From the NCBI GenBank assembly GCA_027577415.1, contig JANBQS010000351.1, positions 1-20,327 on the forward strand: a stretch of 20,327 nucleotides of DNA, in the 5' to 3' direction. The first letter of the stretch is position 1, and every line of letters starts with the position of its first letter. The stretch is from Coemansia sp. RSA 922 (taxonomy: Eukaryota > Kickxellomycota > Kickxellomycetes > Kickxellales > Kickxellaceae). The notes below the pieces were generated by a model. It did not search any database. It had not been told where the DNA came from and worked only from the letters and a program-made list of their open reading frames with translations. This document shows, piece by piece, positions 1-18,101 of this stretch. Both the position numbers and the translations under genes were made by a program.

Positions 1-666
1 TTAACGTTATCAGTCAGGTCCTTCCAAGTGCCGTCAACGCCGACTACTTTGGCCTGACCACCCAAATTGCCTTCGGTACCGACTTGTTTGGCAACACGCG
101 ACACCTCAGACGCAAACGTGCTAAGCTGGTCCACCATGGTATTGATGGTCTCCTTGAGCTGACCCATCTCGCCGCTGAGTTCTACCTTGATCTTCTGAGT
201 CAGATCGCCCTTGGCGACAGCCGTGGTGACATTGGCGATATCGCGAACTTGGTCAGTGAGGTTCTTGGCCATACTGTTGACATTGTCGGTCAGGTCCTTC
301 CAAGTGCCGTCAACGCCGACTACTTCGGCCTTGCCACCCAGGTTACCCTCAGTACCGACCTGCTTGGCGACACGCGACACCTCAGACGCAAACGTGCTAA
401 GCTGGTCGACCATGGTATTGATAGTCTCCTTGAGCTGACCCATCTCGCCACTGAGTTCCACCTTAACCTTCCGAGTCAGATCGCCCTTGGCGACAGCCGT
501 AGTGACATCGGCGATATCGCGGACCTGACTCGTCAGATTATCCGCCATGGTATTAACGTTGTCGGTCAGGTCCTTCCAAGTACCATCAACGCCGACTACT
601 TCGGCCTTACCACCCAAATTGCCTTCGGTACCGACTTGTCTGGCGACTCGCGACACCTCAGACGCA

Positions 667-700
<34 letters not shown>

Positions 701-3700
701 TCGCCTTGAGCAGACCCATCTCGCCACCGAGTTCTACCTCGACCTTTCGGGTAAGATCGCCCTTGGCGACGGCCGTGGTGACATCGGCGATATCGCGGAC
801 CTGGATCGTCAGATTGTGGGCCATCTTATTAACGTTGTCGGTCAGGTCTTTCCAAGTGCCGTCAACCCCATTAACGTGAGCCTGGCCACCTAAATTGCCC
901 TCGGTGCCGACCTGTTTGGCGACACGCGACACCTCAGACGCAAACAGGCTGAGCTGATCAACCATGCCATTAATAGTTGTCTTCAGGTGGAGCATCTCGC
1001 CTTGGACGGTGATGTCAATCTTCCGCGTGAGGTCACCCTTAGCGACAGCTGTGGTGACATCGGCAATGGTGCGGACCTGGAATGTTAGGTTTTCGGCCAT
1101 AATGTTGACATTATCGGTAACATCTTTCCATGAGCCGTCAACGTTGGGCACGTTGGCCTGGCCACCGAGACTCCCTTTAACTCCGACCTCAAGTGCTACG
1201 CGAATTATCTCGCCGGCAAACGTGCTAAGCTGGTCTACCATCGTGTTGATAGTCGCCTTGAGCAGACCCATCTCGCCACCGAGTTCTACCTCGACCTTGC
1301 GGGTAAGGTCGCCCTTGGCGACAGCCGTGGTGACATCGGCGATATCGCGGACTTGGTCTGTGAGGTTCTTGGCCATCTTATTAACGTTGTCGGTCAGGTC
1401 CTTCCAAGTGCCGTCAACACCGACGACGATAGCCTGGCCGCCCAAATTGCCCTCGGTACCGACTTGTCTGGCGACACGCGACACCTCAGACGCAAACGTG
1501 CTTAGCTGGTCAACCATCGTGTTGATGGTCTCCTTGAGCTGACCCATCTCACCGCCGAGTTCTACCTTGATCTTCTGAGTCAGGTCACCCTTAGCTACAG
1601 CCTTGGTAACAGCGGCGATATCGCGAACCTGGTTGGTCAGATTTTCCGCCATGTTGTTGACATTGTCCTTAAGATCCTTCCAAGTGCCGCCAACATTCGG
1701 GAGATCAGCTAGAACGCCGAGAACACCGTCGGTGCCGACCTGTAGCGCGACATGAGAGACAGCAGATACAATTTCGCGTAACTTATCCACCATGTCGTTG
1801 ATAGTCGTCTTCAAGTCGAGCATCTCTCCTTGGACGTCGACGTCGACTTTTTTGCTAAGGTCGCCTTCTGCAATCGCCGTCGTGACCATGGCAATATTTC
1901 GCACCTGGTATGTAAGGTTGTTGGCCATACTGTTGACGTTGTCGGTCAGATCCTTCCAAGTGCCGTCAACGCCGACTACTTTGGCCTGACCACCCAAATT
2001 ACCCTCGGTACCGACTTGTTTGGCAACACGCGACACCTCAGACGCAAACGTGCTAAGCTGGTCCACCATGGTATTGATGGTCTCCTTGAGCTGACCCATC
2101 TCGCCGCTGAGCTCCACCTTGACCTTTCGGGTAAGGTCGCCCTTGGCGACAGCTGTGGTGACATCGGCGATATCGCGGACTTGGTCTGTGAGGTTTTGGG
2201 CCATACTGTTGACATTGTCGGTCAGGTCCTTCCAAGTGCCGTCAACACCGACTACTTTGGCCTGACCACCCAAATTACCCTCGGTACCGACTTGTTTGGC
2301 AACACGCGATACCTCAGACGCAAACGTGCTTAGCTGGTCGACCATGGTATTGATGGTCTCCTTGAGCTGACCCATCTCGCCGCTGAGTTCCACCTTGACC
2401 TTCCGGGTAAGGTCGCCCTTGGCGACAGCTGTGGTAACATCGGCGATATCACGGACCTGGTCAGTGAGGTTCTTGGCCATGCTGTTGACGTTATCAGTCA
2501 GGTCCTTCCAAGTGCCGTCAACGCCGACTACTTCGGCCTTGCCACCCAGGTTACCCTCAGTACCGACCTGCTTGGCGACTCGCGACACCTCAGACGCAAA
2601 CGTGCTAAGCTGGTCGACCATCGTGTTGATAGTCGCCTTGAGCAGACCCATCTCGCCACTGAGTTCTACCTTGATCTTCTGAGTCAGATCGCCCTTGGCG
2701 ACAGCCGTCGTGACATCGGCGATATCACGGACCTGGATCGTCAGATTGTGGGCCATCTTATTAACGTTGTCGGTCAGGTCCTTCCAAGTACCATCAACGC
2801 CAACCACTTTGGCCTGGCCGCCCAAATTGCCCTCGGTACCGACTTGTCTGGCGACACGCGACACCTCAGACGCAAACGTGCTAAGCTGGTCCACCATGGT
2901 GTTGATGGTCTCCTTGAGCTGACCCATCTCGCCACTGAGTTCTACCTGGACCTTCTGAGTAAGATCGCCCTTGGCGACAGCCGTGGTGACATTGGCGATA
3001 TCGCGGACCTGGTCAGTGAGGTTTTGGGCCATACTGTTGACGTTGTCGGTCAGATCCTTCCAAGTGCCGTCAACGCCGACTACTTCGGCCTTGCCACCCA
3101 AATTGCCTTCGGTACCGACTTGTCTGGCGACACGCGACACCTCAGACGCAAACGTGCTAAGCTGGTCCACCATGGTGTTAATAGTCTCCTTGAGCTGACC
3201 CATCTCGCCGCTGAGTTCCACCTCGACCTTCCGAGTAAGGTCGCCCTTGGCGACAGCCGTGGTGACATCGGCGATATCGCGAACTTGGTCAGTGAGGTTT
3301 TGGGCCATCTTATTGACGTTGTCGGTCAGGTCCTTCCAAGTGCCATCGACACCGACTACTTTGGCCTGGCCACCCAAATTGCCCTCGGTGCCGACCTGTT
3401 TGGCGACACGCGATACCTCAGACGCAAACGTGCTAAGCTGGTCGACCATGGTGTTGATAGTCGCCTTGAGCAGACCCATCTCGCCACCAAGTTCTACTTC
3501 GACCTTCTGAGTAAGGTCACCCTTGGCGACAGCCGTGGTGACATTGGCGATATCGCGGACCTGGATCGTCAGATTATATGCCATGGTATTAACGTTGTCG
3601 GTCAGGTCCTTCCAAGTGCCGTCAACGCCATCAACGTTAGCCTGACCACCCAAATTTCCCTCGGTACCGACTTGCTTGGCAACACGCGATACCTCAGACG

Positions 3701-3702
3701 CA

Positions 3703-3736
<34 letters not shown>

Positions 3737-6700
3737 TCGCCTTGAGCAGACCCATCTCGCCACCGAGTTCTACCTCGACCTTTCGGGTAAGATCGCCCTT
3801 GGCGACAGCCGTAGTGACATCGGCGATATCGCGGACCTGGATCGTCAGATTATACGCCATGGTATTAACGTTGTCGGTCAGGTCCTTCCAAGTGCCATCA
3901 ACGCCATCAACATTAGCCTGGCCACCCAAATTGCCCTCGGTACCGACTTGTTTGGCGACACGCGATACCTCAGATGCAAACGTGCTAAGCTGGTCGACCA
4001 TCGTGTTGATCGTCTCCTTGAGCTGACCCATCTCGCCGCTGAGTTCCACCTTGACCTTTCGAGTAAGGTCGCCCTTGGCGACAGCCGTGGTGACATCGGC
4101 GATATCGCGGACCTGATCAGTAAGGTTTTGGGCCATACTGTTAACGTTATCAGTCAGGTCCTTCCAAGTGCCGTCAACGCCGACTACTTTGGCCTGACCA
4201 CCCAAATTGCCCTCGGTGCCAACCTGTTTGGCGACTCGCGACACCTCAGACGCAAACGTGCTAAGCTGGTCGACCATCGTGTTGATAGTCGCCTTGAGCA
4301 GACCCATCTCGCCACTGAGTTCCACCTTGATCTTCTGAGTCAGGTCGCCCTTGGCGACAGCCGTAGTGACATCGGCGATATCGCGGACCTGATCAGTGAG
4401 GTTTTGGGCCATCTTATTGACGTTGTCGGTCAGGTCCTTCCAAGTGCCGTCAACGCCGACGACGATAGCCTGGCCACCCAAATTGCCCTCGGTGCCCACT
4501 TGTTTGGCGACACGCGACACCTCAGACGCAAACGTGCTAAGCTGGTCCACCATGGTATTGATCGTCTCCTTGAGCTGACCCATCTCGCCGCTGAGTTCCA
4601 CCTTGACCTTCCGGGTAAGGTCGCCCTTGGCGACAGCTGTGGTGACATCGGCGATATCGCGGACCTGATCAGTGAGGTTTTGGGCCATCTTATTGACGTT
4701 GTCGGTCAGATCCTTCCAAGTGCCATCGACGCCGACTACTTTGGCCTGGCCACCCAAATTGCCCTCGGTACCGACCTGTCTGGCGACACGCGACACCTCG
4801 GACGCAAACGTGCTAAGCTGGTCGACCATGGTGTTGATTGTCATCTTAAGGTCAAGCATCTCTCCCTTCGGCTCGGAAGTAACCTTTCGCGTGAGGTCGC
4901 CCTTAGCGACGGCCTTAGTGACGAAAGCGATATCACGGACTTGACTAGTCAAATTGTCCGCCATGCTGTTGACGTTGTCGGTCAGATCCTTCCATATGCC
5001 CTCTACGCCATCAACGTTAGCCTTGCCCCCTAGATTGCCCTCAGTGCCGACTTGTCTGGCGACACGCGTGACTTCGGAAGCGAACGTGCTAAGCTGATCC
5101 ACCATGGTGTTGATGGTCTCCTTGAGCTGACCCATCTCGCCGCTGAGTTCTACCTCGACCTTCCGGGTAAGATCGCCCTTGGCGACAGCTGTGGTGACCT
5201 TGGCGATATCACGGACCTGGTTGGTCAGGTTATCCGCCATGTTGTTGACATTGTCGGTCAGGTCCTTCCAAGTGCCATCGACGCCAACAACGATAGCTTT
5301 GCCACCCAGATTACCCTCGGTACCGACCTGTCTGGCGACACGCGATACCTCGTTAGCAAAGGTGTTGAGTTGGTCGACCATGGTGTTGATGGAGTCTTTA
5401 AGGATGCCCAGCTCGCCTTTGAGCGGGGTGGTTATCTTTCTACTAAAGTCACCACGCTCCACTGCGCTCATAATCTGGCTGATATCCCGGACTTGAAGAG
5501 TGAAGCTATTTGCCATCGTATTGACGTTGCCAATCGTCTCTTTCCATGTGCCCTTTAGGGAGCCCACCACGGCCTGGATGCCTAGCTTGCCTTCAGTGCC
5601 AGCCTCCATCGCCACGCGCGTTACACCTGAAGCAACACTGGCGAGGATGGTAACCAAGTCGTTCATCGTCGTCTTGAGCACGTGCATCTCGCCACTCGCA
5701 TCCACAGTGACCATCTTGGTAAGGTCTCCATTGGCCGCCGAGGTGCACACATTGGCGAGATCGCGAATTTGGTTGGCATGGATACACGTCATTGTGTTGA
5801 CCTCTCTCATAAGATCATACCACGTACCCCTTAGACCATGGACGCTACCACAGCTACCCAAGTTACCGCGGACACCCTCATTGCGCGCAACTGTGGCAAT
5901 CTCATGGGAGACACCCGACAATAGCGAGGCCATGCGGTTGACGCGGCTGGCAAGACGCTGAGTATGCGTGATCGGACGGGTGCTGACTGGGGTGCTGGCA
6001 ATGTTGGACTGCACGCCGTGGCTAACTGCAGCGCCAGACGGTGGCAGCATCGGCCACTCGGAGTCATCGTCATCAGAAACAGCATGGCAGCGACTGCAAC
6101 TCACGCGTGCGCTAAAGTCGCCGTTGAGAATAGACTCGGTAACGCGCTCACAGGCCATGACACACTCGAGGCACACCTCCTCACCAGCTGGGGCTGGGGC
6201 CAGGAAGCGGCTTGGTCCACTGGAAAACGTCGATGGTGCCATATAAGCGGACATGGCAGGCAAAGAACCTGACGCGATAGCACGGCTCGTCTCAGCAGTG
6301 GCCACAGCTGCTGCGTCAACGGGCAAGAAGATTGACCACCAGTTGGATATAACCGGCGCTGTCAACTTGTTCCTGCCCTCTGCAGTGGTTGGTAGACCCT
6401 CGTCATCAGCGGTGGGCTCGAGGGCAGTAGTAGAAGGCAAGGCTGCCGTTGTCGCCGCCGCCGCCGCCTCAGCTGGGGCTACTACTGGCTCGGCAGAGTC
6501 CTGTAGCACCTGCGACTGCTGCTCCAGTTGAAGCGCCATCTGTGCCAAATAGGTCTGGTAGGTATCCTTTTCTCTCGCCCACTCGCGCTCGCGCTGGACC
6601 AGCTGGCGCAAGCTGCCGAGAACGCTCTCCACTGTGTGCGAGCGTGTGGGACCGGCGTCACTATTGTGCTCTTCATCGTCTGAGTGGACAGGAAACCTAG

Positions 6701-6989
6701 CGTCCTGCCAGAATGGGGAGCTGCTAGCATCGCGGAAGCTCGCGACATCGCTGAAACTGCTCGACTCACTGTAGTTATCGTCGTTAAGTAGAGCAGCTCT
6801 TCTTTCGATCGATACGCCATGCGGGTGCTGGCCAAGCTCAGATGCGGTCTCAAGCTCAGGCTCGGGTTCAGAATCCGAGGTCGCTGACGTATGACCGAGG
6901 TACCTGTCAACCACGGCCAATGATCCGTCGTAGTTGCCGTCGCCAAGACGGACGAGGCACTCACCCACTGCGTCAATAAGACTGGTCAT
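1..6989 (-). CDS. nik1: Group III hybrid-type histidine kinase with a giant poly-HAMP array (3' end outside window)
   Basis: The frame is open from the ATG at 6989 to the window edge, at least 2329 codons with no stop or intron. Residues 1-120 are acidic and serine-rich; 121-163 look like a coiled coil ([15 protein letters not shown]); 175-179 is an alanine run. A degenerate HAMP with cysteines at 273, 276, 280, 298 and 301 follows. From residue 388 the protein is a chain of 92-residue HAMP units ([50 protein letters not shown]), the signature of fungal Nik1/Os-1. No membrane segment is seen, so it is probably cytosolic. In known fungi this family senses osmotic stress, feeds the HOG MAP-kinase relay and is the target of phenylpyrrole and dicarboximide fungicides. 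The HisKA, ATPase and receiver domains are not in the window; their presence is inferred. Usual homologues have five or six units; this has at least 21. Confidence 0.93.
33..5828 (-). repeat. 21 complete 276-bp HAMP-encoding tandem repeats
   Basis: The landmark encoding GTWKDL recurs every 276 bases: its plus-strand start lies at 21, 297, 573, 849, 1125, 1401, 1677, 1953, 2229, 2505, 2781, 3057, 3333, 3609, 3885, 4161, 4437, 4713, 4989, 5265, 5541 and (diverged) 5817. The spacing never deviates, so there is no indel across 5.8 kb. A 22nd unit begins at 32 and is cut by the edge. Each unit encodes one canonical HAMP (unit residues about 15-67) and a HAMP-like linker. Units at the N-terminal end (4850-5830) and those around 960-1260 and 1680-1870 are diverged; most others are near-identical. 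Confidence 0.97.
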
Positions 6990-7568
6990 CCTCAGCGCGT
7001 ACGACTAGGCGTAGCAGCAAAGATGAATAAACGGAAGGCCAATACGCACCAAGAGTGCAAGTAAAGTCAGAATACGCTTAACGTTTTGTTTGCCCTACAG
7101 TATGTCAAACATAAGAAGAAAAAAGTGCTCCAAGTATTCCACGATAACGGATTGCCTTTTAGTGTTGCTTCCACATTGCAAGCTTTGTGGCAATAGGGTA
7201 GGCTCAGCTCTGGTACATTCGCAGAGTGACTTACAAATTAAGCGAGCTGTTTATAGCTAGAATTTGCAGGTTAATTTAAAAAAATTATAGCTAGCTGAAA
7301 AGAGTAAAGATAATAGAGCCAAATCCAAGGATTTTTTTGTTCTGGTTGCCTCTTGGATTGTATAGCCAATTAGCATTCAGTCATGTGCTACTATCGCTGG
7401 CATGCATGTGCCTACGACATTGTTCGCCCAACAAAGAGACAACTGTCTCATTACTACCCAATGACGTCAACAAAATGTATTATTCCAACAATAAACTTAA
7501 AAAAACCCAAGAGCTTCAAAAGCCCTGATCTACAATACTCGACTCCAAACGAGCGACACGGCATGTCG
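6990..7568. other. Intergenic region: kinase promoter and AA9 downstream region
   Basis: This stretch lies upstream of the kinase start (6989) and downstream of the AA9 stop (7569), both on the minus strand. It is A+T-rich, with short homopolymers around 7270-7340 and 7497-7505. The only distinct motif is a perfect CRE palindrome at 7462. I see no convincing coding sequence, tRNA or repeat in it. Confidence 0.6.
7462..7469. promoter_or_regulatory. Perfect CRE/ATF palindrome TGACGTCA
   Basis: The eight bases match the full CRE consensus bound by fungal ATF/CREB-type bZIP factors. It lies 473 bases upstream of the kinase start, so it could act on that gene. ATF/CREB factors act downstream of Hog1-type kinases in several fungi, which would suit an osmosensor promoter. 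An eight-base match can occur by chance, so function is only a suggestion. Confidence 0.3.
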
Positions 7569-8285
7569 TTAAGGAGAGTAGACAGGTGGACCAGGAATGA
7601 TGTAAGTGGCGCCGCCCTTGTGCTTATTGAAGAGAACGCCTGGCTCTGTTGAGTTATAAATGCCCGAAATAGGGTAGAGCTCTGGGTTTCCACTAGTTGC
7701 GCCAGTAACAGATATTTGAGCGCAATTAGGGTAAAACTGCGCCTCGCCTTCAGTTTTAGCATTATGCAAGGCAATAATCTCGGTTCTCAGCAAGTACTCT
7801 CCGTTATTGATCTGAGTAGGAATCTTTACAGTCAATTTACCATGATTCTCGCGTACAACGTCAGTACACCACATGTTTCTTTCGACGTTAAACCCTTGTT
7901 CATATATCTTGAACCAAGAATTACCAAGACCATTGCTCTCCAAGGGTGCCATGTACACGAGGCATGGACCACGATGAGATGGCGAGATAACGTTGTCGGA
8001 CTCGGTCGTATTAAAGTGATGCCACTCTACGACAATCTCGGACCCAGCCACCACGGGCATTATCTCAGTAAGTGCAGGTTCCATTCCCGTGGAGCGGCAT
8101 AAGAGTAGAGGGTTGTTGAAGTCTTTAATCGGTCCATTGCGCATGAGAGGGCGAATATACTTTCCCTTTGGATTCATACCATCTTTCGTACCAATAAAGA
8201 AAAGGTTTGTGTGAGCAGTGGCGACATTGAATATAGTTGCGACCAGCGCGAGTATAAGCAAGTAGCCCGGTGAGGTGTGACGCAT
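7569..8285 (-). CDS. Secreted AA9 lytic polysaccharide monooxygenase
   Basis: The 238-residue product belongs to family AA9 (formerly GH61), copper enzymes that oxidatively cleave cellulose and related glucans outside the cell. I chose the ATG at 8285 over an in-frame one 18 bases upstream (8303), because it gives a compact signal peptide (residues 1-24) ending ATA, followed directly by His25, which becomes the N-terminal histidine needed for the copper brace. The second copper ligand is His104 (SPSHRGP) and the axial tyrosine is Tyr185 (QFYPNC). The second-shell His174 (IIALH) and Gln183 are also kept, at the family's spacing of 9 and 11 residues. The ending GVLFN...YIIPGPPVYSP is typical. 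One deviation is LRTEI where most members have LRHEI. The mature length of 214 suits a single catalytic domain, with no CBM1. All key residues are intact, so it should be active. Substrate cannot be read from sequence. Confidence 0.92.
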   Translation of the reverse strand: MRHTSPGYLLILALVATIFNVATAHTNLFFIGTKDGMNPKGKYIRPLMRNGPIKDFNNPLLLCRSTGMEPALTEIMPVVAGSEIVVEWHHFNTTESDNVISPSHRGPCLVYMAPLESNGLGNSWFKIYEQGFNVERNMWCTDVVRENHGKLTVKIPTQINNGEYLLRTEIIALHNAKTEGEAQFYPNCAQISVTGATSGNPELYPISGIYNSTEPGVLFNKHKGGATYIIPGPPVYSP

Positions 8286-8816
8286 GTTTCCAGAAACAAA
8301 CAAAAAGTATTGAGAGTATGTATAAAAATAGTGCTAGAGTATCGAAATACAAGTGGAGCAAGAAATGGGGTGGAGCACTTTTCTCTCTCTCTCTCTCTCT
8401 CTCTGATAGAACATGCCAAGTGGGCTTGGAAAGAGTGAAAAGGATAAAAAGAGTAATAAGCAAGCGCTTCCTTCCTTTTTGCCAATGACATATCATGCTT
8501 ACCTCTCTTAGTAAAAAGGCTGTGAAGCTCAATGGAAGCGGGCCCCATTGGCCCAAATGCACTTGAGCCAACTGCTTCTTTTTTGGCCTTTGTCAAAGTA
8601 GGCCCTCCACCTCCAAAAAGAGTTCGTTTTTCTCTTTTTACATCGAGTGGTTCATGTCTTTCATCCGGCCCCCGTGGTTTTTGAAAACACACAGCTTGCA
8701 ATTTTGATTAAGCTATACGATCTACTCGTAACGAAAAAAGCAAGGAGTACGGAGAAAATAACAAATAGAAATATATTATTTTTAAACAAAAACTATAAAC
8801 ACCAAGGCATATTCGC
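8286..8816. other. Intergenic region: AA9 promoter side
   Basis: This covers the AA9 upstream region and the downstream side of the ubiquitin-like gene. It contains a (TC)n tract at 8382-8404 and A/T-rich stretches at 8750-8800. Minus-strand open frames run through it, but they include the microsatellite (RERERERE) and resemble no protein I know, so I do not call a gene. Confidence 0.5.
8382..8404. repeat. (TC)n microsatellite, about 11.5 units
   Basis: A pure TC run of 23 bases lies about 100 bases upstream of the AA9 start; read on the AA9 strand it is a GA repeat. Such tracts are common in fungal promoters and vary in length between strains. No specific function is shown. Confidence 0.9.
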
Positions 8817-12454: not shown

Positions 12455-12692
12455 CTTTTTTTTTTTGGGAGACAGATGAGAATAAAGATTTAATTATAGA
12501 AAGAGAGCTAAAGAAAAAAATAATACATAGACCGGCAGCGAAAATGGCACACAAGTATTCAGAATAGGGGAGAGGCTAATCAGAGCAGTAGATTTGATGT
12601 CTGGTTCCAGACAATAATTATTTTTCTTTGGTTTCGTATATAAAAATTTTTTATTATTATTATTATTTTCAATTTTGTGAAACAGCCTTAGA
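12455..12692. promoter_or_regulatory. Divergent promoter between ERJ5 and BCP1
   Basis: This 238-base gap is the only place in the window where transcription diverges. It is strongly A+T-rich. On the BCP1 side it holds a TATA-like run (tatataaaaa near 12638) and an ATT repeat (about 12650-12667) just before the BCP1 ATG. A poly-T run at 12457-12466 lies next to the ERJ5 ATG. Confidence 0.6.
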
Positions 12693-13553
12693 ATGAGCCG
12701 TAAAAGAACCCACGACAGTGACAAGGAGATGGACAGCGGTAGCGAGGACAGTAGCAGGCAAGACAGCGAAGCCGAAGCCGGATCCGACGCTGAAGAGGAG
12801 GAAAAGGAGATCGTAGACGTAGACTTTGAGTTCTTCGATCCCAAGCCCATAGACTTCCACTCTATGAAACGCATGCTAATGGGGTCATTTGGAGACGATG
12901 CCGAAGACTTTAACCTCAGTGGACTCGTAGACCTGATACTCTCACAAAACACTATCGGATCCACGGTAAAATTTGAGGGCGACGATGATCCGTACGCGTT
13001 CCTCACGGTACTCAACATGCACGTACACAAGGATAAGGAGCCCATACAGCAGATCAAGGACTATTTGCTCAAAAAGGCCGAAAAACGCGGAGCCGCTTCA
13101 AAGCTCTCTGAGATTTTTAATGGCCAGGGACATGTTGGTCTCTTGTTCAGCGAGCGTGTCGTCAATATGCCGCCGCAGGTTGTGGCGCCCATGCTCAAGA
13201 TGCTAGTGGAGGAACTGGAGTGGGCCGTGGCTGATGGCGAGCCCTACGAGTTTGAACACTACGTGTTGCTGGCTCCCATGTACAGGGAGACTGAGGCCGT
13301 TGACGACGATGAGGGTGGCGCAAAGAAGCGGACGGGTCCGACTATCGACGCCTATGCGCATGCGGAAGACGAGTTCATTGAGGAGTTTGCGTGTGCTAAA
13401 TTCGACTACAAGTTCTCCCGGTCCAAGCGCGTGGCAGAGTCAAGAAACTCGTTTGCTGACACTGGGCTCGCACCATCGAGACGGTGCCTCGTCATACACA
13501 AGGCCAAGATGCCAGCACTAATCGCGCGACTGGAATCGGCACTAGCAATGTGA
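12693..13553 (+). CDS. BCP1: BCP1/BCCIP family protein
   Basis: In yeast Bcp1 is an essential nuclear protein that chaperones ribosomal protein uL14 (Rpl23) and is needed for nuclear export of the lipid kinase Mss4; the animal homologue is BCCIP. The 286-residue length is close to yeast Bcp1. Residues 1-43 are acidic and serine-rich (DSGSEDSSRQDSEAE). The conserved domain starts at VDVDFEFFDPKPIDFHSMK and runs through GLVDLILSQNTIGSTVKFEG, LTVLNMHVHKD and GLLFSERVVNMPPQVVAPML to EHYVLLAPMYRE. The C-terminus ends in a basic segment. No membrane segments or introns are seen. RRP6 follows on the same strand after only 118 bases. A poly(A)-signal-like AATAAA lies at 13595. Confidence 0.93.
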   Translation: MSRKRTHDSDKEMDSGSEDSSRQDSEAEAGSDAEEEEKEIVDVDFEFFDPKPIDFHSMKRMLMGSFGDDAEDFNLSGLVDLILSQNTIGSTVKFEGDDDPYAFLTVLNMHVHKDKEPIQQIKDYLLKKAEKRGAASKLSEIFNGQGHVGLLFSERVVNMPPQVVAPMLKMLVEELEWAVADGEPYEFEHYVLLAPMYRETEAVDDDEGGAKKRTGPTIDAYAHAEDEFIEEFACAKFDYKFSRSKRVAESRNSFADTGLAPSRRCLVIHKAKMPALIARLESALAM

Positions 13554-13594
13554 TTATGATTATGATCAAGGTTTTTTTTTTCCTTCTCTGGTAA

Positions 13595-13600
13595 AATAAA
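13595..13600 (+). terminator. Candidate poly(A) signal for BCP1
   Basis: An AATAAA hexamer lies 42 bases after the BCP1 stop, after a T-run, inside the 118-base gap before RRP6. Position and motif fit 3'-end formation, but fungal signals are loose and this is not proof. Confidence 0.4.
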
Positions 13601-13642
13601 AAAAACTAGACTATAGCAATAATTTCTCCACAGCTATTCAAA

Positions 13643-13662
13643 ATTATTATTATTATTATTCT
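13643..13662 (+). repeat. ATT trinucleotide tract before RRP6
   Basis: An ATT repeat of about six units lies immediately upstream of the RRP6 start, probably in its 5' leader. A matching tract precedes BCP1 at about 12650-12667. Both are close enough to the start codon to lie in the transcribed leader. Confidence 0.8.
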
Positions 13663-13671
13663 TTTTGCGAA

Positions 13672-16251
13672 ATGGCACAGAGTAACAGCTTTGTCGACAA
13701 TTTTGATGCGTCGATTGCGGCGGCGTTTGGCGCTTTGGTCAAGGCGACCAAGGCAGCGGGACGCCTAGGTGACGATATAGCGTACCACCGGACGCTAGAC
13801 GAGTCAGTAGACACGCGCTTGGAGCAAGCGTCGCAGCGCACGCTGACCATGGCCAACCACCTCTGGATGACATCTCGCGCCGACACATCCCTACCGATCA
13901 CCGCAGCCGACGACATAGCCATACTTACCGAGGGGCAGTGGACGAGCGGACCGCAGTTCAGCGCGGTCATTGACGCAGTAGACACGCTCCTTGAGCGTAT
14001 CGACGTGGGGCTGGACGAATTGGCCAAGAACTCTGCGCACCAGCTACGCAACTCAGTAGGCGCGCAGAGCGCAGCCGTAGTGACTTCGGTGGCTGGTCGC
14101 GATGTGCGTGTGGTGCATGCGCAGAATATGCCGCGCCCGCAGCTACAGTTCCGCGACGCCATTGACAACTCCCCTAATACGCCGTTTGTGTGGCGTATTC
14201 GCACCAAGCCCCATGCGCGCGTGCCCTTGGACTACGGTCTGCCCAGCGCGGCGGTTGCAGGGTCCACCCTGGGCCAGCACCTGCAGACCCTGGGCATCTC
14301 GCGCCCCGGCACGCCGGGCGGGTCAGGGGCAGGCACCCCGCGCCGCAACAAGCCGTCCCCCGAGCTGAGCGCCGCGCAGCTGTCCGATGCGCTATCGGGA
14401 GCCGTATCAGCACTGCCTCACCCGTACGAGTACGAGATCAAGCACTACGAAGCGCCCCCACGCCTGTTCGCTGAGGCCGAGGCCCTGGCGCCACGCGACT
14501 GGGACACTACGCCATTCACCTTTGTCGACACGCCAGCCGCACTTTCTGCCATGATGGCTCACTTGGCGGGTGTGACGGAGATTGCCATAGATCTGGAGCA
14601 CCACAACTTCCGGTCATTCCAGGGCTTTACGTGTCTGGTCCAGCTCAGCTCACGCACCCAGGACTTTGTCATCGACGCGCTGGCGCTCCGCGACTCGCTG
14701 CACCAGCTCAACACGGTGACTGCCGACCCGCAGGTCATCAAGGTATTCCACGGCGCTGAGAGCGATATTGTCTGGCTGCAGCGTGATTTTGGCATATACG
14801 TTGTGGGACTCTTTGACACTTACCACGCGTCGCATGTACTGAACATGCCACACCACTCGCTGGCCCACTTGCTGCATGTGTTTTGTGCCTACGATACTGA
14901 CAAGCGCTACCAGCTGGCCGACTGGCGCATCCGTCCCATTCCCACCGAGATGATGCGGTACGCTAGGGCTGATACGCACTTCCTATTGCACATATTCGAC
15001 TGCATGCGCAACGACCTGGTACAGCGCGGCGCCCGCCTAGTAGGCGAGGACGTGGCCACTCCGGGTGCCCCGCATTTCGGCCAATTAGCCGGCGGCATTG
15101 ACAGGGTCCAGACCGCCACCCAGCCCATGCAAGTGGTCCTCCAGCGGTCTGCGCAAACAGCACTCACGGTCTATGTCAAGGACTCTTACGACGCAGACAC
15201 CGGAATGGGGCCCGGAGGGTGGGCCCAGCTTTTGCGCAAGTGGCGGCAGCCCCTAACGCCGGCGCAGTTCTCTGTTCTCCGTGCCCTGCATGCCTGGCGT
15301 GACGCATGTGCTCGCGACGAAGACGAGTCTACGAGATACGTGTTGCCCAACCATATGCTTTTCGCACTCGCTACAAAGGCCCCCGCTGATGTTCCTACTC
15401 TTTTGGCTTCCTGCCACCCGACGCCGCCACCTGTCCGCATGCATGCCGCTGACCTCGTTGTGCTCATTGCTCAGGCCCGGTCGGCTGCCGAGTCCCGGGT
15501 TCCTGAGACCCTTGCCCATGAGGAAGCTCCGCGTCCTGTGGCGCCCGTGCACATGCGCTTTGCTGACCCTGTCGACGAGCCTGTCGATGTGCTGACACCC
15601 GATATCCTCGCTAGTGCTCAGGCCATTGCCTCGCCGACATCGGCGCTTTTTGGCCCTACACCGCCAGTGGCCAGTGACTCTGAGGCCAAACGCCGTGCGC
15701 TCCAAGTACGTTCGACTTTGGTACTACAACCGGCAAAACCCACGGCAATCTTGGCTCCTACCGAACCCGAGTTTACTCTCGTCGCAGCTAAACGCAAACG
15801 CGCAGAGCCTGTTCGTCCAGCCGAACCCGTAGTAATTTCCGAGACCTATGCCGAATACCATGCACCCAAGCAGCAAAAACCAGCTCCGCCACTGGATACT
15901 ATGCAGTTGCCAAAGATCGCATTGGGTGATATCGACGATAGCTCGGACGATGAACCAAAGGTCAAAAAGTCGGTTATTTCGAAGAAATCGAAAACCCCCA
16001 AAAAGACCACCAAGAGTGTCTCTTCCACGGATGTCACTCCTTTCGAGTATGCGGAGGACCCAGAGATGGAGGTTATTGGAGAGTCGGCGGCTCCGGTTAA
16101 TAGTAAGAAGAAAGGCAAGAAACAGAATCGTCCTGCCAAGAGCTTTGACCCTTACTCGCAGATATCTACTACTAAGGAGCTGTCCAAGAAGCCCAATCGT
16201 TCGCGTGTCAGTCAAAAGTCTAGCAACCGTAGCATGACCTTCAAGAAATAA
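13672..16251 (+). CDS. RRP6: RRP6/EXOSC10 nuclear exosome 3'-5' exoribonuclease
   Basis: Rrp6 trims and degrades RNA in the nucleus as the distributive hydrolytic subunit of the exosome, acting on rRNA and snoRNA precursors and aberrant transcripts. The 859-residue product has an N-terminal PMC2NT-type region (about 10-120, which in yeast binds Rrp47), a GC-rich linker around 185-245, then the exonuclease domain. Its DEDD-Y catalytic set is complete: Asp307 and Glu309 (IDLEHH), Asp365 (HGAESDIVWLQ), Tyr430 and Asp434 (YARADTHFLL). The spacing 2-56-65-4 equals that of the yeast enzyme. An HRDC domain follows at about 525-605. The tail (about 720-859) is lysine-rich (KKSKTPKKTTKS, KKKGKKQNR) and suits nuclear import and RNA binding. 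It is close in size to animal EXOSC10. The frame ends in four consecutive stop codons. No intron is needed. Confidence 0.96.
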   Translation: MAQSNSFVDNFDASIAAAFGALVKATKAAGRLGDDIAYHRTLDESVDTRLEQASQRTLTMANHLWMTSRADTSLPITAADDIAILTEGQWTSGPQFSAVIDAVDTLLERIDVGLDELAKNSAHQLRNSVGAQSAAVVTSVAGRDVRVVHAQNMPRPQLQFRDAIDNSPNTPFVWRIRTKPHARVPLDYGLPSAAVAGSTLGQHLQTLGISRPGTPGGSGAGTPRRNKPSPELSAAQLSDALSGAVSALPHPYEYEIKHYEAPPRLFAEAEALAPRDWDTTPFTFVDTPAALSAMMAHLAGVTEIAIDLEHHNFRSFQGFTCLVQLSSRTQDFVIDALALRDSLHQLNTVTADPQVIKVFHGAESDIVWLQRDFGIYVVGLFDTYHASHVLNMPHHSLAHLLHVFCAYDTDKRYQLADWRIRPIPTEMMRYARADTHFLLHIFDCMRNDLVQRGARLVGEDVATPGAPHFGQLAGGIDRVQTATQPMQVVLQRSAQTALTVYVKDSYDADTGMGPGGWAQLLRKWRQPLTPAQFSVLRALHAWRDACARDEDESTRYVLPNHMLFALATKAPADVPTLLASCHPTPPPVRMHAADLVVLIAQARSAAESRVPETLAHEEAPRPVAPVHMRFADPVDEPVDVLTPDILASAQAIASPTSALFGPTPPVASDSEAKRRALQVRSTLVLQPAKPTAILAPTEPEFTLVAAKRKRAEPVRPAEPVVISETYAEYHAPKQQKPAPPLDTMQLPKIALGDIDDSSDDEPKVKKSVISKKSKTPKKTTKSVSSTDVTPFEYAEDPEMEVIGESAAPVNSKKKGKKQNRPAKSFDPYSQISTTKELSKKPNRSRVSQKSSNRSMTFKK

Positions 16252-17312: not shown

Positions 17313-18101
17313 GTAATTTGAATACAAGGTTTTTGTAGCTTTCTTTCTATTACCACTTGAATACATGACAAGATTTGTTTAGCACCCAACAATTACTTAA
17401 TTAGTATATGGCTACGTGAGTTAAATCGTCACAGTTCAGTTTTTTTTGTTTTTAATGTTTTGATGTGTGGTGAGTGAAACAGCTGTCAGAATGTGCGTCC
17501 ATCCTCGCTGTGCCGCACTCATAAACCCGCAGCAGCCAAAAAAGCTATTGCGAGGGCGCAGGCAAGCAAGATCATCGACAGGCAAACAGATGGCCCGACA
17601 CCTCCCTTTACGGACGGCGCACTTTGTGTCATCTTCCAGCGTGTAGTGTGTGTCTATGTTCGGTGAACAAAGAACTGAATATCAACTGTATACATGATCC
17701 TGTAAAGTACAGTCGGTTAAAGATTTCTTAAGCAGTTTCCCGGTCCAGCACCTGAGTTTTATACCCCCACTGGCAGTTGGTGGTGGATCCGGGTGCCGAT
17801 GGGGTCGTACATGTGATTGACGTTGAGGAGAGTGGATCTGCTGGTGAAAAAAATGTTGGGGGTAACATTGAGTTCTTTGGACCTCTAGTGGCACACTGAT
17901 AAATTACCCAGCATCAAGCTAACGGGTCAAACATGGCTATTGTCTCTTAGTAAACCACTTTCAAGCTCACATGTTTCTAGCTTCTTCGAAGCAAATTGTG
18001 ACACATCTCTTCTGACAGTTGGTTGCTCGCCAATAAAAGTGAAGAACTTGCACCATCGATGTGCTGCATATACGGAAACGCTCTATTTCGGATATCAACA
18101 T
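17313..18101. other. Gene-free stretch upstream of the promoter repeats
   Basis: No convincing gene is visible. A short plus-strand open stretch at about 17767-17900 reads like protein but has no start and fits no family I know. The segment beginning at 17903 (attacccagca, then aagctaa) is a diverged match to 20083 onward, so the duplicated block seems to start here. T-rich runs lie at 17435-17460. Confidence 0.5.

Follow-up and report, generated by a model that had tools for sequence, protein, structure and literature searches.

Coemansia is a genus of the Kickxellales, and one contig of Coemansia sp. RSA 922 ends within a gene that encodes a very long chain of HAMP domains. This locus raises the question of whether such a chain is real, to what kind of protein it belongs, how far it exceeds the arrays of related proteins and what a rod of this size could do in signalling. 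The figure to compare it with is that of five or six repeats, given for the studied Ascomycota proteins (PMC3418262, PMC3848655).

The HAMP array in the window

The window, by which we mean the whole stretch of DNA analysed (20,327 nucleotides, positions 1-20327 of contig C351), belongs to a 20.4-Mb assembly of 960 contigs. Its minus strand holds a single stop-free frame of 2334 amino acids at 3-7004 that reaches the left contig end, where the gene is cut. The predicted start codon encodes residue 6 of this frame and lies at 6989, and the start resembles the N-termini of the Coemansia relatives P0054 and P0171; we annotate 3..6989 (minus strand) as the N-terminal part of a group III hybrid histidine kinase coding sequence.

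Tandem Repeats Finder reported a period of 276 at window positions 4-5390, with 19.5 copies, 82% matches and 0% indels, which bears out the exact 276-base periodicity claimed in the initial annotation. The autocorrelation of the C351 protein was 0.69 at lag 92 and at most 0.12 at the other lags from 20 to 299 except 184 and 276, and all 19 steps between 20 pattern-matched units measured 92 residues. The repeat unit is a di-HAMP pair of 92 residues, that is, 276 bp. Pfam searches with the same protein gave E=4.4e-196 for HAMP and E=1.9e-159 for HAMP_2, with 20 stretches for each. Profiles for A (46 positions) and B (45 positions), derived from the array and then refined with it and 120 homologs, recognised 21 A and 22 B HAMPs; these 43 domains alternate without a break from residue 362 up to where the contig stops. 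A lone type B HAMP (residues 362-405; 5790..5921, minus strand), located with the array-derived profiles, is followed by 21 A+B pairs of 92 residues each at 3..5786 (minus strand), which the repeat finder, Pfam and our own profiles all located; 20 of these are complete and the 21st has its B HAMP truncated by the contig end (42 of 45 positions). The earlier description thus holds for the presence of the array and for its alternation. Its "at least 21 complete units" become 20 complete pairs and one cut by the window end, its alternating HAMP-like linkers are themselves B HAMPs recognised by the second profile, and its extent of 1..5828 falls slightly short on the right, where the first clear HAMP occupies 5790-5921.

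An AA9 family (lytic polysaccharide monooxygenase-like) gene adjoins the kinase at 7569-8333 (minus strand), and the same frame adjoins the kinase on another contig, C723. Between 9699 and 16251 there are frames with a weak GTPase match (just under the Pfam cut-off), DnaJ, BCCIP, and PMC2NT with 3'-5' exonuclease and HRDC (Rrp6-like), and a U3 snoRNA was located at 17481-17716 (minus strand, 45.6 bits).

Continuation of the array and the kinase module

A HAMP search of the genome gave at least 31 matches, those listed lying on contigs C351, C29 and C723. Contig C29 starts within a B HAMP of the same repeat, as expected from the claim that the array runs past the window edge, and adds 15 HAMPs (8 A, 7 B) before a kinase module. 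The ends of C351 and C29 share no exact suffix-prefix overlap in the range of 10-399 nt; the overlaps that suit the register best are one of 53 nt containing a single mismatch and one of 329 nt containing 20. Were C29 the continuation of C351, the chain would have at least 56-58 HAMPs (58 with the 53-nt overlap, 56 with the 329-nt one) across an unassembled junction, or more if units are missing between the contigs. Because the two contigs are unjoined in the assembly and C29 could come from the other haplotype, only 43 HAMPs are proved in one piece. We also considered C29 as an allelic copy of the C351 interior and judged this unlikely, the best gapless placement reaching an identity of 0.885 (1716 nt) against 0.956 between haplotypes, though individual pairs differ between the haplotypes by up to 11%.

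The second haplotype is represented by C723 (L010, L021), which is 96.0% identical to the window over 4070 nt and 97% identical in the neighbouring genes at 12681-16251, so that the assembly holds two haplotypes at this locus. Contig C723 also ends within the array, and each of its five pairs best matches the C351 pair of equal number. Within the array the haplotype identity of 0.956 corresponds to 66 differences in 1515 nt. Synonymous divergence (Jukes-Cantor) between C351 and C723 was 0.13-0.28 in four bins from residue 546 and 0.04-0.06 in the earlier bins. The bases that differ between haplotypes occurred at the same column of another unit in 64 of 66 cases, versus 72% expected for random bases, a pattern only suggestive of gene conversion between haplotypes, as selection could produce it too.

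The C29 protein (L009) carries, after its HAMPs, a HisKA domain at residues 733-798, a HATPase at 845-960 and then a receiver, with the H-box, N, G1, G2, acidic-pair, phospho-Asp and Lys motifs. This is the sole HisKA match among the matches listed in the genome search. At 1196 of 1198 residues (99.83%) the protein agrees with the one from Coemansia sp. S100 named 'histidine kinase osmosensor', and it is 89% identical to a C. aciculifera protein; among the matches listed, the kinase is closest to fungal proteins whose annotation reads osmosensor or NIK1 histidine kinase. A hydropathy scan, which is not a dedicated predictor, found no strongly hydrophobic segment in either fragment (no 19-residue window above 1.6 on the Kyte-Doolittle scale). 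The Nik1-type identity proposed for the window is therefore borne out by a kinase core with its motifs, and leftward extension would lead to the HisKA, HATPase and receiver domains, all of them on C29, whose link to the window is unassembled.

Two further features of the C29 protein lie outside its kinase core. About 150 residues (~1176-1330) interrupt the receiver, separating its acidic pair (AEDN, 1125) from the phospho-Asp (ILMDVQMP, 1339), and most of this insert has pLDDT <50 in a low-confidence AlphaFold model. The insert was present in six of six aligned Kickxellales kinases (shorter in Spiromyces) and absent from all four others aligned, those of Mortierella alpina, Mucor, Basidiobolus and Calocera. 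Behind the receiver, residues 1431-2101 form a tail of 671 residues (15% acidic, 13% basic, 29% S+G+P). Counted from the H-box match, 1077-1386 residues remain in four Kickxellales proteins (P0121, P0124, P0173, P0142) versus 475-540 in four other fungi.

Array length among relatives

We compared 231 proteins, namely three fragments of this genome and 228 homologs taken as the best 120 of each of three long-query searches, a set biased to long arrays and no census. In this set, 230 proteins matched HAMP (227 homologs and the three fragments); 216 of them have an H-box after the array, and the median for these 216 is 30 HAMPs. The longest arrays, of 56-78 HAMPs, belong to ten homologs: 78 in Coemansia sp. 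RSA 986 and Linderina pennispora, 74 in C. reversa and C. spiralis, 66 in Kickxella, 65 in Martensiomyces, 64 in RSA 638 and RSA 2618, 60 in Mortierella alpina and 56 in Linnemannia zychae; Calocera cornea follows with 55. Length varies within Coemansia itself, where the entries range from 24 (C. mojavensis, labelled partial at the source) to 78, RSA 1821 having 30. A strain-variable osmotic or fungicide response, as suggested in the initial annotation, would be a conjectural role for such variation. The 2010 survey of Dunin-Horkawicz and Lupas reportedly holds HAMP chains of up to about 31.

With 43 HAMPs in one piece, the array does greatly exceed the five or six repeats of the Ascomycota literature proteins. 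The further idea that its length is exceptional fails for the family, in which eight relatives carry 64-78 HAMPs, and a unique giant array is rejected because relatives have more units. We judge the array to be real, well preserved and extreme, yet no record for this fungal kinase family. In the open-licence literature we found no description of a giant fungal HAMP array, and our literature search returned no experiments on any Kickxellales Nik1.

Age, selection and register of the units

For divergence among units we took 26 full units by pattern (19 from C351 and 7 from C29), which form 325 pairs with a median nucleotide identity of 0.826 and a median dN/dS of 0.12 (321 pairs with finite dS). 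Dropping seven divergent units (1, 2, 3, 14, 16 and 17 of C351 and 7 of C29, in the numbering of that comparison) left 171 core pairs with median dS of 0.52, median dN of 0.05 and identities of 0.72-0.95. By these sequence measures the units are old and under purifying selection, and with a median dS of about 0.5 an assembly fiction or recent slippage is unlikely.

The register is kept far beyond this genome. Among the A-to-A spacings below 184 residues in the 231 proteins, 3475 of 3690 are exactly 92; the other 215 include 72 of 97 residues and 45 of 93. The 22 Kickxellales entries have 458 of 487 spacings at 92, the remaining 29 being different. Each of the 97-residue steps belongs to a different protein; most of these 72 proteins are bacterial or unnamed, and one is from Mortierella.

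A conserved plan of the array

A tree of 404 units of 92 residues (FastTree, midpoint root) was built from C351 (20 of 21 A starts, the cut last one excluded), C29 (8 units) and 13 of the 228 homologs, that is, long or complete Kickxellales arrays together with Dimargaris and Mortierella alpina. Of the 28 units of this genome, 21 fell into one single-species clade (local support 0.963). The units outside were W1, W4, W15 and W18 of C351 and units 6, 7 and 8 of C29. Among these, W18 and C29 unit 6 paired together (0.548) and were joined by a C. spiralis unit (0.891).

Three of the others mark the ends. The first pair, W1 (residues 407-498; 5511..5786, minus strand), fell together with units from nine other species into a clade (0.832) whose members all stand at position 1, the first unit of Kickxella lying outside; we regard W1 as a position-locked N-cap unit. 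C29 unit 7 grouped with the penultimate units of ten others in an 11-species clade, all at N-1 (0.995), and C29 unit 8 shared a 14-species clade (0.912) with the final unit of every one of the thirteen others. The last unit contains the conserved linker to HisKA, so part of the orthology seen for it belongs to that linker.

The remaining one, W15 (residues 1695-1786; 1647..1922, minus strand), is a central landmark pair kept inside the array across Kickxellaceae. Its clade of 9 species (0.97) holds one within-array unit from each of eight other long-array genomes, at pair 28 of 39 in RSA 986, 22 of 37 in C. spiralis, 19 of 33 in Kickxella, 19 of 32 in both RSA 2618 and RSA 638, 18 of 37 in C. 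reversa, 18 of 39 in Linderina and 14 of 32 in Martensiomyces. These eight relatives have 13-27 pairs ahead of the landmark and 11-21 behind it; this genome has 14 ahead and, if C29 continues, 13 or 14 behind. The landmark is at most 65% identical to its own genome's units and 70-85% identical to a single unit in each of the eight other arrays, although in Linderina it barely stands out (identity 0.70 versus 0.67 for the next unit). It was also recognised in four Coemansia arrays outside the tree, as unit 17 of 25 in P0005, 19 of 22 in P0008, 11 of 23 in P0188 and 3 of 16 in P0122 (identity 0.79-0.84, next best 0.64-0.68), and Spiromyces unit 2 joins the clade weakly (0.764). It was not seen in P0015 (22 units), P0189 (Mycoemilia, 24), P0123 (14), P0045 (15) or P0048/P0049 (14), all labelled partial, nor in the smaller fragments tried; such incomplete arrays may stop short of the relevant part. 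Both short arrays, those of C. mojavensis and RSA 1821, lack a counterpart; their compared N-terminal segments are identical.

On this evidence, the first, penultimate, last and landmark units keep their identity and order across genera, with 21 of the 28 units homogenised within the species. We present this plan as new, having found no description of it in the open-licence papers searched.

The N-terminal region and its cysteines

The array is preceded by a region of 356 residues (5922..6989, minus strand) composed of S, G, P and A to 38%. It contains a cysteine cap, CxxC-x21-CxxCH (residues 278-307; 6084..6173, minus strand). The segment around this motif looks, by eye, like a HAMP A whose connector has been enlarged, and the motif could be a metal or redox site. 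The identical motif and spacing were found in nine of the ten other Kickxellales proteins compared, the Kickxella form being altered. Six other early-diverging fungi, Mortierella, Actinomortierella, Mucor, Absidia, Basidiobolus and Dimargaris, have one CxxC near the array start, and none was found there in Ramicandelaber. All cysteines of the C351 protein lie at residues 16-420, and the first of the C29 protein does not occur before residue 835, which leaves the rod almost devoid of cysteine.

Fold, proposed mechanism and known systems

A profile of 22 three-pair segments matched the solved chains 9trk ('histidine kinase, Gcn4p'; E=2.9e-93), 9trj (1.8e-45) and Aer2 3vol (1.2e-7). An AlphaFold monomer of three pairs (presumed to be a dimer) had inner helices of 30-32 residues and connectors of 13-16, at low confidence (mean pLDDT 64), and such models served for helix pattern and disorder only. 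The top three Foldseek hits were all Aer2 poly-HAMP structures (3LNR, 4I3M, 4I44; E 0.0065-0.014, none below 0.001). The array resembles the concatenated HAMPs of Aer2 by profile (3VOL) and by Foldseek (3LNR), and those of the 9TRK/9TRJ histidine kinase-Gcn4 fusions by profile. The Aer2 structure has three HAMPs (PMC3570549, as excerpted) as against 43 or more here, and 9TRK has one unit with five extra residues, like the 97-residue step.

Taken together, the locus probably encodes a Nik1-type (group III) kinase with a cysteine-capped N-terminus, a very long A/B HAMP chain in a 92-residue register and kinase, ATPase and receiver domains, its chain working as a rod. The HAMP pairs would each have two states and stack into a rod formed by a parallel dimer, roughly 130-140 nm long for 56-58 HAMPs if each contributes an axial rise of 2.4 nm, a rough value estimated from the helix lengths of a low-confidence model. 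Such a rod may keep the kinase active at normal osmolarity and turn it towards phosphatase under stress, in line with the proposals made for Nik1 proteins of five or six pairs. From the Nik1 and Aer2 literature combined with the array plan, we infer that the kinase-proximal units, the cap and the landmark bear specific contacts, whereas the remaining units would be interchangeable filler acting alike. Gene conversion and unequal exchange would let the number of filler units drift, while selection preserves the fold and the register.

The literature behind this model concerns much shorter chains. In Ascomycota group III kinases the HAMP region is reported to set the kinase state (PMC3418262, PMC7643160, PMC3848655, PMC6433957). 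CaNik1p has five repeats, or nine HAMPs (PMC3848655). In Drk1, fludioxonil converts the kinase to a phosphatase and HAMP mutations were present in nearly all resistant mutants (PMC6433957); in a DhNik1 model HAMP4 and HAMP5 switch with osmolarity (PMC3418262), and the Aer2 HAMPs adopt two conformers with opposite output (PMC3570549), in each case according to the portions of these papers cited.

Our protein shares with Nik1, Os-1, TcsC and Bos1 of the Ascomycota the N-terminal 92-residue HAMP pairs, the HisKA, HATPase and receiver domains and the lack of a transmembrane segment. It differs from them in its HAMP number (their five to six repeats make about nine to twelve HAMPs, against 43 in one piece and at least 56-58 if C29 continues), in the ~150-residue interruption of its receiver and in its long C-terminal tail. 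The Kickxellaceae homologs in public databases, entered as 'histidine kinase osmosensor' or unnamed (Coemansia RSA 986, C. reversa, Linderina, Martensiomyces, Kickxella), resemble it in their 64-78-HAMP arrays with the landmark and in the cysteine cap where the N-terminus is present (altered in Kickxella), and depart from it in their filler units and in the numbers of these on each side of the landmark. Five bacterial poly-HAMP kinases or chemoreceptors (P0069, P0076, P0089, P0091, P0103) also have 30-33 alternating HAMPs, but each contains a 97-residue step, and they have GAF domains (four of them) or a chemoreceptor domain (P0069).

A bolder version, which we regard as a long shot, is that the fixed ends and the landmark split the interchangeable filler into two adjustable stretches of a length-tuned, collectively switching osmosensor, where the filler would set threshold or cooperativity and the landmark would be a hinge or docking site.

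Alternative explanations

The most serious competitor to a signalling rod is a neutral ratchet, in which a few end units matter and the functionless middle changes length by unequal crossing-over. The range of 24 to 78 HAMPs among Coemansia entries (the lowest being the C. mojavensis entry labelled partial), the homogenisation of filler within the species and the short arrays of C. mojavensis and RSA 1821 without the landmark all agree with it. However, the median dN/dS of 0.12 between units, the preserved register and the presence of the landmark in nine of nine long arrays of the tree speak for constraint, although selection for a folded rod would leave the same signs. We hold this explanation to be a real possibility, if a doubtful one.

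A relay might also be dispensed with if the rod were a spacer or scaffold that separates the cysteine cap from the kinase or clusters dimers. The distribution of cysteines is in keeping with this: the long Kickxellaceae arrays have, in eight of eight cases, only 3-5 cysteines per 2943-3587 residues, every one within the first 478, unlike the Mortierella alpina array with its 24. The units are uniform, and a relay through ~28 pairs would presumably demand high cooperativity. Yet deletions of HAMPs in the shorter CaNik1p or DhNik1p alter the kinase state and the fungicide response, as described in the cited portion of PMC3848655, which a passive spacer would not do, and we consider a mere spacer unlikely.

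That the unit number is an assembly artefact, with reads of a short array stretched or chimerically joined, was a concern because C351, C29 and C723 all end within the array, and C351 contains exact repeats as long as 116 bp and shares others as long as 128 bp with C29. Nevertheless, the units are distinct sequences and not the same reads repeated (core median dS 0.52), the first five pairs recur in matching order on the second haplotype, the assemblies of relatives hold 74 and 78 HAMPs on 129- and 255-kb contigs, and a collapse would mean that the true number is larger, not smaller. On the synonymous divergence and the relatives, assembly expansion was judged unlikely, and an artefact in general seems to us very improbable. 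Hardly credible at all is that the repeats bind DNA, after the partial helix-turn-helix matches of Myxococcus AskA and AskB. In its favour, the C351 protein also matches SpoIIID (PF12116, E=1.2e-11) and further families, and a like overlap of SpoIIID/HTH matches with HAMPs has been described (PMC7643160, in the portion cited). Against it, no stretch of these families passes the threshold alone, and the best ones lie inside the HAMP array.

Implications

In the literature cited, the arguments on how HAMP chains carry a signal concern anything between a few domains and five or six pairs (PMC3848655, PMC6433957, PMC3418262, PMC3570549). This kinase family offers a natural length series from 24 to 78 HAMPs with matching ends, and with it a test of how far such rods carry a signal. 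The distinction between interchangeable filler and fixed caps and landmark points out which units may be worth testing. Five or six repeats describe the studied Ascomycota and are not general for fungi.
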